Below, piece after piece: positions 35,650-39,050 of a stretch of DNA of 63,077 nt. Position numbers and translations under genes: made by a program. The DNA lies in the NCBI GenBank assembly GCA_009787445.1, contig WRFX01000001.1, positions 1-63,077 on the forward strand, given 5' to 3'. Source of the DNA: Chitinivibrionia bacterium (lineage in GTDB: Bacteria; Fibrobacterota; Chitinivibrionia; Chitinivibrionales; Chitinivibrionaceae). Every line of letters begins with the position of its first letter. Within the stretch, counting starts at the first letter, position 1. The notes beneath the pieces are model-generated. The model was not told the origin of the DNA, searched no databases, and worked only from the letters and a program-made list of their open reading frames with translations.

Positions 35650-36126
35650 ATGCAAGATTATGAAAAATTTATGCTTGCCGCATACGACGAAGCGCAAAAA
35701 GCGTTTGCCAACGACGAAGTTCCGATAGGCGCGGTAATAGTAAAAGAAGACGAAATAATTGCGCGCGGATTCAATAAAATAGAATTAGAACAAAATCCCA
35801 CCGCGCACGCCGAAATTGTCGCTATATGCGAAGCGGCAAAAGTTATTGGCACGTGGCGGCTTGACGACTGCGAATTGTTTGTAACGCTTGAGCCGTGCGT
35901 TATGTGTTTGGGCGCGGTTTTTCAATCGAGAATTAAAAAAATAATTTACGGCGCGGGCGACAGCAGATTCGGCGCAATATCGAATAAAAATTACATAGAA
36001 ATCGCTAAAACCGCTTATATGCGCGATGTGGAAATTACGGGCGGAATTTGCGAAGAAAAATGCAGAGATTTATTGCAAGAATTTTTTAGAAAAATAAGAA
36101 TTAAAAATAAATCGGATAAAATATAG
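35650..36126 (+). CDS. tadA: tRNA-specific adenosine deaminase TadA
   Basis: This 158-residue zinc deaminase makes inosine at tRNA-Arg wobble position 34. It has HAE in NPTAHAEIVAI (zinc His and catalytic Glu), PCVMC in LEPCVMCLGAV (two zinc cysteines), and the TadA-type C-terminus CRDLLQEFFRKIR. Normal length. Lies 26 bases after the PorV-like gene. Confidence 0.95.
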   Translation: MQDYEKFMLAAYDEAQKAFANDEVPIGAVIVKEDEIIARGFNKIELEQNPTAHAEIVAICEAAKVIGTWRLDDCELFVTLEPCVMCLGAVFQSRIKKIIYGAGDSRFGAISNKNYIEIAKTAYMRDVEITGGICEEKCRDLLQEFFRKIRIKNKSDKI

Positions 36127-36175: not shown

Positions 36176-36820
36176 ATGTCGTTAGCATTGGTAGAAGTCG
36201 GACAAGTAGAGGCAATTATAGACGGGGTAAATAATTTGCACGTTCAATTTTCGGAAGAATATTTTAATAAAGAAGGAATTGTTCCCATAAATTTGAAAAA
36301 CAATATTTCGCAAGTAGATGTGAATTATATCTTATTATACAGATTAGATTTGCACGAAAGCATAAACGATTATATTCAAACGTTAGGTTTAGTTAATTTG
36401 AGTATAATGTATAGAGTAAAAACGGCGGAATCCATTTTAGATAAAATAAGTAGATTCAGAGATAAAGAAAATTTATCGGTTAATCAATGGCTAAACGATA
36501 TTTTTGGATGTAGAAAAACGGTGTCTGCCGAAGCATTGCAAATTATAAAAGGAAAATTGGACGAATGGAAAGAAAAATACGGTTTAATGTCTTGGTACAC
36601 AAGAGATAAAGGCGACGGTTATGTAGGTACGCACATATATTTTAAGAATAAAAACAATTTTTATTTTCCTTGGGAATTGCAGTTATGGGAAACATCGCAA
36701 GTAAAATCAAATTTAAATTCGCACGTTAAATACAAAAGAGATTTTGCAAGATTATTGCATATATCTTCGTTACTTGTCAATTCGGGCTTTGATTATGCAA
36801 AAGTAAGTAAAGAAATTTAG
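36176..36820 (+). CDS. RelA/SpoT-domain (small alarmone synthetase-like) protein
   Basis: This 214-residue stand-alone protein has the (p)ppGpp synthetase core. Seen: R80-x-K82 in YRVKTAESILDKISRF, D108 and R113 in NDIFGCRK, GYVGTH near 148-153, E167-x-Q169 in WELQLWE, and H183 with YK in NSHVKYK. All expected catalytic positions seem present. There is no HD hydrolase, TGS or ACT domain. It could be a small alarmone synthetase or a toxSAS-type enzyme that modifies tRNA or makes (pp)pApp. The next gene is not an obvious antitoxin. It has its own upstream region with ATAGTATTTT near 36,133 and an AAGGGG site before the ATG. Confidence 0.7.
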   Translation: MSLALVEVGQVEAIIDGVNNLHVQFSEEYFNKEGIVPINLKNNISQVDVNYILLYRLDLHESINDYIQTLGLVNLSIMYRVKTAESILDKISRFRDKENLSVNQWLNDIFGCRKTVSAEALQIIKGKLDEWKEKYGLMSWYTRDKGDGYVGTHIYFKNKNNFYFPWELQLWETSQVKSNLNSHVKYKRDFARLLHISSLLVNSGFDYAKVSKEI

Positions 36821-36953
36821 AATAATATAAAAAAAACAATAATTTTTTTAAAAAAGTACTTTTTGCGTATGTCTTAAATTATTTTTGTGTTTAATATAAA
36901 AAATTAAACTTTAATTGCGCGATAAAAATTTGCGCAAGATTTTGGGGGTTGTT

Positions 36954-38867
36954 ATGTTTGGGAATAAAAAAGGCGTTTCGATGTTATATGTTCTTATGGC
37001 GCTTGTTTGCGTTGGAGCGATTGGCACGCTCGTTTTGAATATGGCGAAAAAAGAAAAAGCGGATTCTTCACTGCGTTATTCTTCGGAGTTGGCGCGGTAC
37101 GGCGCAACGTCGGGCTTGGTTTTGTCGATAAATTTTAGCGACGCGACAAAAACAACCGAATTTAAAAAACTTTTGACAAAATGGCACAAATATTATCACG
37201 ACCCGATAAAGTACGCTTCAAGCAAGCCCGACGATTCCGAAAAATGGCTTCAGTTGTCTCCCACTCACAGCGACCCGAGTAAATATTACGAAGATGTCAA
37301 CAATAACGGTATGAAATATCGCGCAAGAATAATAAATATGGATTTTTCTGCTTTGAAAAAAATTACAGGAACGAGCAACGACCCCAAAACGTCTCCCATA
37401 AACATAGCGATTGAATGCGAATCGATAGACAAAAGCGGAAGCCGCGCAAAAAACGTCGCGTTTTACAAAGTTTACGGATTTGAAGAACAAAACGAAGACC
37501 AAATTCCCTCCAGCGCATTGTATCTTGGCGGCGGTATCGGTGAAATCAACACGGTTTTGGAAGTTACAGGAGTTCCCGGAACAGCGGAAGACGGAATAGG
37601 AAGAAAAGGTGATACTTTTTTGAAAGGTGGCGGAAATGTGTATTATAGTGGACATATATTTAACGGCGAATTCAGACGAAGAGGCAGACCTGCCGACCCG
37701 TTGCTAACTACCAGTCCAGCAAACGTACCTAACGCACTTTTGCAAGGCGCTACGTTTAATGGACCCGCTTATTTTGGGTTGGAAGATGGCTTTCCTGATG
37801 CTGGTTTGTTGTTCCAAAATCAACCGTGCGTATTCAATGGCAATTTCGGTTCGGAAACAACAATAATTTTTAGTGGAACCGCGAGCCCTACAATATTTAA
37901 CGGCGACGTGTTTTTAAATGGAAACGCAATAAGTGATAAAGATAATGATAAGGGAGAATGGCGGTTTAATCAGAATAGCAAGTTGCAAGTATTGAATACG
38001 GCGCTTTATGGAAAATTTAACGGTGCTCACACAAGTTGGACGATTGCCGACAACAGCATTAAAGGGAAAGCCGCCATACCTTCTATGTATTCAAATAGCA
38101 CGGAGCAACCTTTAGATGCCAATATAACTGAAAATACTACTCCTGTAAATTTGTACGAAAAATTGAAAATTAAATCAAACGACCCGCCTTCTATTGATAT
38201 TGATTTAACAAAGTTGGATGCATTTACCGACATTCATTCATTAGGCGTTCCGGTGAATGGTATTACAGGAACACATCTAAATAACCTATACAACTCAAAC
38301 CACAGTATTAAACATAACAATGAACCAAATGGTTGGATGCTTCTATCTACGAACCAAGTAAATATAACGTTTACCGAAAACGGCGGCGGAGTACCTTTCA
38401 CAGGCAAAATGGTTTTGCTTTTTAACGGGAATGGCGGTGAATACGGTAGTATAGGAAACCTTTTTACAAGCAGTAATAATAGCAATTCCTTGATTCTCTT
38501 TGAAAACGGTAGAAGCACTATGAAAATGGGTAATAAAGGAACGTTAAGGGGATTGGTAGTGAAGCGTGGTGCGGGAAAACTTGGTTTGGGTATGGATAAT
38601 CCAATCAACGGTGTGAATACGATGACATTGAAAGGCGCGGCTTATTGCGTACAAGGTGAAAATTATGTGGGTACTGCTCCTGAATTTCGTTTAGAAGGAG
38701 GGAATAGTCAAAAAATTATTGTTGAGTATGACCCGAGCGTTTTGAAAGAAATTCAAGAAGAACTTCCCGGTGCAATTAAAATTGTCGGCGCAACAATAAC
38801 AGAACCCGTGTTAGAAGAGATTATGAATTATACGATGTTTGGCGAACAGCAAAGTCGGTTGTTTTAG
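36954..38867 (+). CDS. Large pilin-like (PilX/prepilin N-terminus) surface protein
   Basis: This 637-residue protein begins MFGNKKGVSMLYVLMALVCVGAIGTL, a short basic leader followed by a hydrophobic helix. The pattern is like the N-termini of type IV pilus minor pilins such as PilX, although the G-V-S-M processing site lacks the usual Phe/Met and Glu5. The rest is beta-rich and Gly/Asn-rich with repeated FNG elements (TIFNGDVFLNG, CVFNGNF) like a beta-helix. The start at 36,954 was chosen for the N-terminal helix and GGGGG upstream. A hairpin (TTGCGC...GCGCAA) lies at 36,913-36,935. pilT is at 55,690. Function is inferred to be surface display or adhesion. Confidence 0.55.
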   Translation: MFGNKKGVSMLYVLMALVCVGAIGTLVLNMAKKEKADSSLRYSSELARYGATSGLVLSINFSDATKTTEFKKLLTKWHKYYHDPIKYASSKPDDSEKWLQLSPTHSDPSKYYEDVNNNGMKYRARIINMDFSALKKITGTSNDPKTSPINIAIECESIDKSGSRAKNVAFYKVYGFEEQNEDQIPSSALYLGGGIGEINTVLEVTGVPGTAEDGIGRKGDTFLKGGGNVYYSGHIFNGEFRRRGRPADPLLTTSPANVPNALLQGATFNGPAYFGLEDGFPDAGLLFQNQPCVFNGNFGSETTIIFSGTASPTIFNGDVFLNGNAISDKDNDKGEWRFNQNSKLQVLNTALYGKFNGAHTSWTIADNSIKGKAAIPSMYSNSTEQPLDANITENTTPVNLYEKLKIKSNDPPSIDIDLTKLDAFTDIHSLGVPVNGITGTHLNNLYNSNHSIKHNNEPNGWMLLSTNQVNITFTENGGGVPFTGKMVLLFNGNGGEYGSIGNLFTSSNNSNSLILFENGRSTMKMGNKGTLRGLVVKRGAGKLGLGMDNPINGVNTMTLKGAAYCVQGENYVGTAPEFRLEGGNSQKIIVEYDPSVLKEIQEELPGAIKIVGATITEPVLEEIMNYTMFGEQQSRLF

Positions 38868-38879
38868 GGAATTTTTAAA

Positions 38880-39050
38880 ATGAGCAATCAATTTGACAGT
38901 ATAATGGAAAATTTGCAAGATACGTTAGAGTTCGCGCAGGGAAATAACTCAAAATGTCGCGCTGTTGAAGTTGAGTTAAAAATAAAATCAAAAAATAAAA
39001 GCGCGATTACGAGAATTTCGACAAATGCGTTTCCGAAGGTTATTGCGTAA
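38880..39050 (+). pseudogene. Truncated XRE-family antitoxin-like ORF
   Basis: This 56-codon ORF starts MSNQFDSIMENLQDTLEFAQ and then has GNNSKCRAVEVEL. This opening is typical of ~100-residue XRE/HigA-like antitoxins of the YiaG type, which continue with a helix-turn-helix. Here the HTH is missing and the frame ends after ITRISTNAFPKVIA, so it is read as a degraded remnant. No toxin gene is adjacent. It starts 12 bases after the pilin-like gene and is followed by a terminator. Confidence 0.5.

Follow-up and report, generated by a model that had tools for sequence, protein, structure and literature searches.

The gene at 36176-36820 of the window, the 63,077-nucleotide stretch of a Chitinivibrionia bacterium contig that was analysed here, encodes a single-domain RelA/SpoT-type synthetase which, as judged from sequence comparison and a modelled fold, belongs to the FaRel2/PhRel2 branch of toxSAS enzymes and not with the housekeeping (p)ppGpp synthetases. 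With a little better than an even chance, its product is a solitary, normally silent defence effector that would act by pyrophosphorylating tRNA. The domain, the branch and the use of toxSAS in phage defence are already known. Because toxSAS enzymes are understood as antitoxin-dependent toxins, a solitary and conserved sister lineage raises the question of how such an enzyme stays safe; the lineage described below is widespread and strongly conserved, and is found alone behind essential genes and inside restriction operons.

The gene and its protein

The locus carries the following features, in window coordinates.

35650-36126, plus strand: tadA (tRNA adenosine deaminase), the upstream gene and the last of a run syntenic with the sister genome
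36162-36167, plus strand: aagggg, a probable ribosome-binding site 8 bases 5' of the ATG, read from the sequence
36176-36820, plus strand: coding sequence of the single-domain RelA/SpoT-type synthetase, 214 aa
36290-36307, plus strand: NLKNNI, residues 39-44, at the position of the NL[KS][RKH]T motif, aligned to FaRel2 K28/R29
36413-36421, plus strand: R80-V81-K82, pyrophosphate-donor (ATP) site, invariant in 22 family members
36413-36739, plus strand: synthetase (RelA_SpoT) domain, residues 80-188, Pfam PF04607, 23.4 bits
36497-36514, plus strand: D108 to R113, metal-binding Asp and catalytic Arg, invariant in 22 family members
36608-36634, plus strand: G-loop K145-H153 with Tyr149, acceptor site, and Gly151, from the family and reference alignment
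36674-36688, plus strand: E167-L-Q169-L-W171 (ELQxW), also present in PhRel2
36915-38867, plus strand: downstream 650-aa ORF with prepilin-like N-terminus; the better start is probably the ATG at 36954

The open reading frame reported in a first-pass annotation of this DNA is real: its coordinates were confirmed, homologues with about 45-53% identity to the window protein occur in several phyla, and relatives are under purifying selection. This conservation, together with dN/dS of 0.05-0.07 in relatives, excludes a chance origin. The annotation's description of an orphan single-domain RelA/SpoT protein that lacks a hydrolase domain was borne out by Pfam, which found the synthetase domain only and no hydrolase (HD), TGS/ACT or other extra domain in the 214 residues, and each residue it had listed (R80, K82, D108, R113, E167, Q169 and H183) is present and unchanged throughout 22 family members. 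Pfam alone would miss even the synthetase domain, since its score lies below the PF04607 cut-off of 27 bits. The phrog_4012 profile, representing a phage family of unknown function, spans residues 8-192, almost the full length of the protein (E 6.9e-51). Weak matches, among them TIM21 (Pfam E 0.13), were set aside, and the PADLOC "defence" label (PDC-S33, 2e-6), a hit to a model that CapRelSJ46 also matches, reflects the shared domain only.

The ORF is full-length with no internal stop, all catalytic residues are kept, and sequence and AlphaFold model agree on a synthetase fold with intact donor and acceptor residues. An extra C-terminal tail of 22 residues is poorly predicted by AlphaFold; 31 residues follow H183, the last ones poorly predicted, versus about 7 in family proteins. 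Within its family the window protein is one of the most divergent, and it sits on a long terminal branch. The GC content of its gene is 30.5%, compared with 40.5% for the window, 40.5% for tadA and 40.9% for the next gene. The host's long Rel/RSH gene is located elsewhere in the genome and keeps the HDVVED hydrolase motif. The region of that long gene is present twice in the host genome (contigs C58 and C82; L001 and L002), identical over 3336 bases, and is probably an assembly duplicate.

Placement among the synthetases

Trees were referenced to FaRel2, PhRel2, CapRel, RelQ, RelP and long RSH proteins, with the caution that FaRel2 and CapRel lie on long branches. The family containing the window protein formed one clade (support 98/97), PhRel2 was its sister (97/91 or 86/87 in two trees), and family, PhRel2 and FaRel2 together stood apart from RelQ, RelP, long RSH and CapRel with support of 100/98, the position of CapRel being unsure because of its long branch. 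This main split was stable when more FaRel2- and CapRel-like sequences were added, and AU tests rejected a grouping of the family with the (p)ppGpp synthetases (p 0.0026 and 0.0032). By HHalign, the family matched Lily PhRel2 with E 3e-19 over 178 columns and FaRel2 with E 2e-8, and RelQ with 19% probability. When the AlphaFold model (mean pLDDT 78) was compared with known folds, FaRel2 was best (VIA Z 13.6, residues 7-187), and RelQ came next (Z 8.7), aligned from residue 49 only. The phylogenetic check suggested with the first-pass annotation has been run in this way, with the protein falling beside PhRel2, then FaRel2, and the housekeeping grouping rejected. The annotation had left the choice between a small alarmone synthetase and a toxSAS; the toxSAS branch is favoured by the trees and by the AU test (p about 0.003), while a toxSAS of the toxin-antitoxin kind is unsupported, no antitoxin having been found.

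Individual residues were compared with eight (p)ppGpp synthetase reference sequences only. The G-loop of the window protein reads GYVGTH, with Gly151 versus a Ser in these synthetases (GYRSYH), and ELQLWE stands in place of their E(I/V)Q(I/L)RT; the RelQ/RelP-type marks are thus absent and replaced as in PhRel2. G-loop Tyr149 is nearly invariant among 22 family members from several phyla. The NL[KS][RKH]T motif is present in most of the family and also in FaRel2-like proteins, with NLKK or NLKR in PhRel2. Window K41 aligns with FaRel2 K28 and window N42 with FaRel2 R29, so that a basic residue is kept at K41 only. In FaRel2, which pyrophosphorylates the 3'-CCA of tRNA, K28 and R29 contact the tRNA acceptor stem (PMC11559606). 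Of the PhRel2 enzymes, that of B. subtilis transfers pyrophosphate to the CCA ends of tRNA, and that of L. animalis inhibits protein synthesis (PMC8832971). By analogy with B. subtilis PhRel2 and FaRel2, tRNA is the likely substrate of the window enzyme.

Search for an antitoxin

A toxSAS as currently defined has, to our knowledge, an adjacent or fused antitoxin. Among the references, a Panacea (PF13274) antitoxin gene lies directly 3' of PhRel2 in phage Lily and in the Ligilactobacillus plasmid, and FaRel2-like plasmid genes have a small ORF overlapping or close downstream. The gene adjoining GBSV1 PhRel2 is annotated GepA, and the Panacea domain has been described in GepA-type genes (PMC8832971). 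At the window locus, Pfam and inspection of the neighbours revealed no recognisable antitoxin beside or fused to the protein. No Panacea gene was present at any family locus or in nine complete genomes, host included. Neighbours differ from locus to locus, and neighbour clustering found none common to the family across host groups, the hsd/Fic genes being shared within one clade only; other candidates proved to be shadow ORFs of the synthetase itself or coincidental general ABC-transporter matches. The initial remark that no antitoxin is evident has therefore held up on all three counts of Panacea gene, extra domain and conserved neighbour. A supposed antitoxin remnant at 38880-39050 (56 aa) was not upheld: nothing in Pfam matches it, and the host genome has it only once. 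Since the adjacent or fused antitoxin that defines the class was looked for and not found, the gene is not filed as a member of the toxSAS toxin-antitoxin systems.

An RNA partner was also considered. No Rfam RNA scored above threshold beside the window gene, and a mir-627 match (E 0.24) is meaningless as an RNA antitoxin. A promoter and terminator scan of the window locus gave 9 promoter-like matches versus 6.4 in the shuffled background, which is near background.

Within the gene's 3' end, an antisense sigma-70-like site at 36780-36751 on the minus strand matches at 11/12 positions, with TG before the second hexamer; it could drive an antisense RNA.

Distribution and mobility of the family

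Homologues were found in streptococcal prophages and satellite phages, in streptococcal and lactococcal plasmids, in Neisseria gonorrhoeae and Pasteurellaceae, on a Vibrio plasmid (a broken copy), and in many Proteobacteria MAGs and Fibrobacterota MAGs. The family is present in 6/168 genomes of the window's phylum and in 8/201 genomes of the order of one proteobacterial host. A scan of viral contigs for close relatives with the window protein alone as query returned none; with the family alignment as query it returned 30 loci, mainly near-identical prophage copies that added little diversity. In PLSDB the homologues are annotated "GTP pyrophosphokinase", which is a label only. Most close pairs of relatives have dN/dS of 0.05-0.07, a measure that applies to those pairs, the synonymous sites of the window copy being saturated; such strong purifying selection indicates that the protein is maintained. 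Broken or frameshifted members occur on the Vibrio plasmid (L012:5001-5369), in an Enterovibrio MAG (L036:203-844) and in Streptococcus (L037:5974-6393), so copies decay in some hosts.

The unit that moves appears, from DNA alignments, to be little more than the ORF, carried as a single gene among unrelated bacteria, phages and plasmids. Between differently placed copies, DNA homology runs from a few bases 5' of the start to a few bases from the stop; counted from the ORF ends, it extends from 0 to +1 in L024/L033 and from 0 to +3 in L020/L024. L025 and L028 are 98% identical in DNA up to three bases past the stop and diverge immediately afterwards, which has the appearance of a sharp recombination boundary at the gene end. 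The synthetase gene is usually preceded immediately, at the loci seen, by a gene of the same orientation, often a housekeeping one: it follows rsmA in N. gonorrhoeae, lies between genes whose products are recognisable as ParE and ParC in streptococci, and is part of an rml operon in Actinobacillus. The copy in the sister genome G001, with a divergent upstream gene, is an exception.

In G001 the four genes up to tadA are kept and the order then differs, the genome's own synthetase copy lying elsewhere. Insertion of the window gene is therefore likely; the exact empty junction was not recovered in G001. The surroundings had been called a variable-looking stretch, and there is indeed a synteny break, better put as a break directly behind tadA. 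The downstream neighbour at 36915-38867, described as pilin-like, does have a prepilin-like N-terminus by eye, while a family assignment failed: it has no Pfam, NCBIfam or PADLOC match. The orthologues identified around tadA in G001 do not include it, and as far as can be seen it lies outside the synthetase system.

Defence contexts and restriction operons

Members of the family often have phage-defence genes around them; the window copy itself lies outside any defence island, prophage or restriction operon. Phage copies in prophages and satellites lie between a CI-like repressor and the integrase, a usual place of superinfection-immunity genes. The toxSAS PhRel of phage Phrann acts in superinfection immunity (PMC8832971).

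Eight proteobacterial loci carry the gene in a type I restriction operon, seven of them between hsdS and hsdR (L023, L025, L028, L029, L031, L032 and L035) and the truncated L039 with the synthetase gene directly upstream of hsdR; three further proteobacterial loci hold remnants of a type I restriction operon. The hsdS-synthetase-hsdR arrangement is known only from one proteobacterial clade. L023 and L035 share both the gene and the adjoining hsdR at 67% DNA identity, from which the arrangement is taken to be old. Across 201 genomes of one order, with HsdR at least 80% identical, the same slot of homologous operons holds this gene, PrrC (PADLOC E 7e-144), YhcG-type nucleases, a YoeB module or RhuM-like genes, the last named by eye. 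As the slot-mates vary, the hsdS-hsdR interval may be a passive cargo site. PrrC is kept silent by the restriction enzyme to which it is linked until a phage anti-restriction factor frees it (PMC2610378), and the parallel suggests that the hsd-embedded synthetases may be controlled comparably.

The variable hsdS-hsdR cargo slot belongs to one type I restriction family in Methylococcales-type genomes, where PrrC, a YhcG/DUF1016 nuclease, a RhuM-like gene, Phd/YoeB and the small synthetase take turns in L129-L147 (upstream of HsdR, at about positions 1-1500 in the HsdR orientation). A Fic protein (PADLOC PDC-S04) recurs near the synthetase (L023:3714-4319, L016:4814-5428 and L037:6410-7033), inside hsd operons and also in streptococci that have no hsd genes.

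Proposed function and alternatives

In the reading proposed for these observations, the lineage would have lost, or never had, an adjacent protein antitoxin, and the single ORF would spread and be expressed from whichever operon lies ahead of its insertion. The enzyme would stay silent in healthy cells until an infection cue activated it, which would amount to a defence of the abortive-infection type, and copies in type I restriction operons may be controlled by the restriction complex in the manner of PrrC. A role in defence is somewhat probable. Silence and a switch upon infection are argued for by copies that lie behind essential genes, intact and under strong purifying selection, and the chance of this latency and its trigger is put at about even. 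We infer that the enzyme is toxic and that the window copy is functional. Several findings count against the defence-effector reading: N42 replaces FaRel2 R29, the window copy lies outside defence contexts, the restriction slot is drawn from one clade and has varying occupants, and the window protein is itself divergent, with an extra tail. It is unlikely, as a whole, that this is a self-sufficient toxSAS lineage without cognate antitoxin, whose enzyme is kept from acting through its own conformation or through host machinery (for hsd copies, the type I restriction complex), is set off as a tRNA pyrophosphokinase solely by phage attack or anti-restriction, and spreads across phyla as a bare single-ORF defence cassette.

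A non-toxic enzyme would likewise be compatible with survival as a solitary gene in housekeeping operons; it would then be an accessory small alarmone synthetase that produces (p)ppGpp or a related nucleotide and serves as a mobile stress regulator like RelQ or RelP. All nucleotide-site residues are conserved, the gene is solitary as RelQ and RelP are and sits without antitoxin behind housekeeping genes (rsmA, parE/parC, rml), and the PLSDB label of its homologues, for what a label conveys, points the same way. That reading nevertheless appears improbable: grouping with RelQ, RelP and long RSH is rejected (p 0.003), E(I/V)Q(I/L)RT and the G-loop Ser are replaced as in PhRel2, and the N-terminal region fits FaRel2, whereas RelQ aligns from residue 49 only. 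If the enzyme is instead an ordinary toxSAS toxin, its control would have to be unlinked or non-protein, whether by an unlinked gene, an antisense RNA, the restriction complex (for hsd copies) or a host HD-domain hydrolase that removes the tRNA mark. Its closest relatives are antitoxin-controlled toxins, the host long RSH keeps its HDVVED motif, small alarmone hydrolases can remove the tRNA mark (PMC11559606), and an antisense promoter-like site lies inside the ORF. The absence of a neighbour common across host groups (hsd/Fic in one clade excepted), of a Panacea gene in nine genomes and of an Rfam match above threshold, the 9 promoter-like matches against a background of 6.4, and a conserved DNA unit that comprises the ORF only make such control quite unlikely.

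A decaying, horizontally acquired remnant without function of its own is a very unlikely reading of the window copy. Its low GC, long terminal branch, altered C-terminus and N42 would fit decay, as would the visibly broken relatives (L012, L036 and L037) and the rarity of the family in the phylum (6/168 genomes), but the ORF is stop-free and full-length, the catalytic residues are kept and there is a plausible ribosome-binding site.

Comparison with known systems

PhRel2 (phage Lily, Geobacillus phage GBSV1 and the Ligilactobacillus plasmid; B. subtilis Ia1a in the literature) forms the sister clade, alignable over the whole length and sharing the FPWELQIW(N/D) and NLK(K/R) motifs, but identity is only about 26-31%, and the Panacea antitoxin lies directly 3' of PhRel2 and not of family genes. 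FaRel2 of Coprobacillus (PDB 8pu1, 8pu3 and 8pu4) is the best structural match, including the N-terminal region, with the K28 position kept; it differs in being bicistronic with ATfaRel2, and FaRel2-like plasmid copies have a short downstream or overlapping ORF. CapRel (CapRelSJ46) uses a synthetase domain as a tRNA pyrophosphokinase in phage defence and shares the weak PADLOC PDC-S33 match, but it has a fused C-terminal antitoxin/sensor domain, whereas the window protein ends soon after the synthetase fold, and its place in the tree is across the main split, albeit on a long branch. RelQ and RelP likewise have one synthetase domain and solitary genes, and differ in branch, motifs and N-terminal architecture.

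The fpRel2 subgroup of Atkinson et al. 2011 (PMC3153485) is reported from Firmicutes and beta-proteobacteria and overlaps the hosts of the family, which may coincide with it on this comparison of host range only. The open literature searched, a partial body of work that leaves aside the main SAS-subfamily survey of Jimmy et al. 2020, describes neither a PhRel2-sister lineage devoid of antitoxin nor its occurrence inside hsd operons.

The PrrC anticodon nuclease shares the hsdS-hsdR slot in homologous type I restriction operons and, if the substrate assignment holds, a translation block that targets tRNA. It is an unrelated protein that cleaves the anticodon, in contrast to modification of the CCA end, and the window copy lies outside such operons. 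Should the family be active on tRNA, many "GTP pyrophosphokinase" genes in streptococcal phages and plasmids would need renaming, and the hsd-embedded enzymes would provide a second, chemically different case of the PrrC principle, in which a guard that attacks tRNA is coupled to type I restriction.
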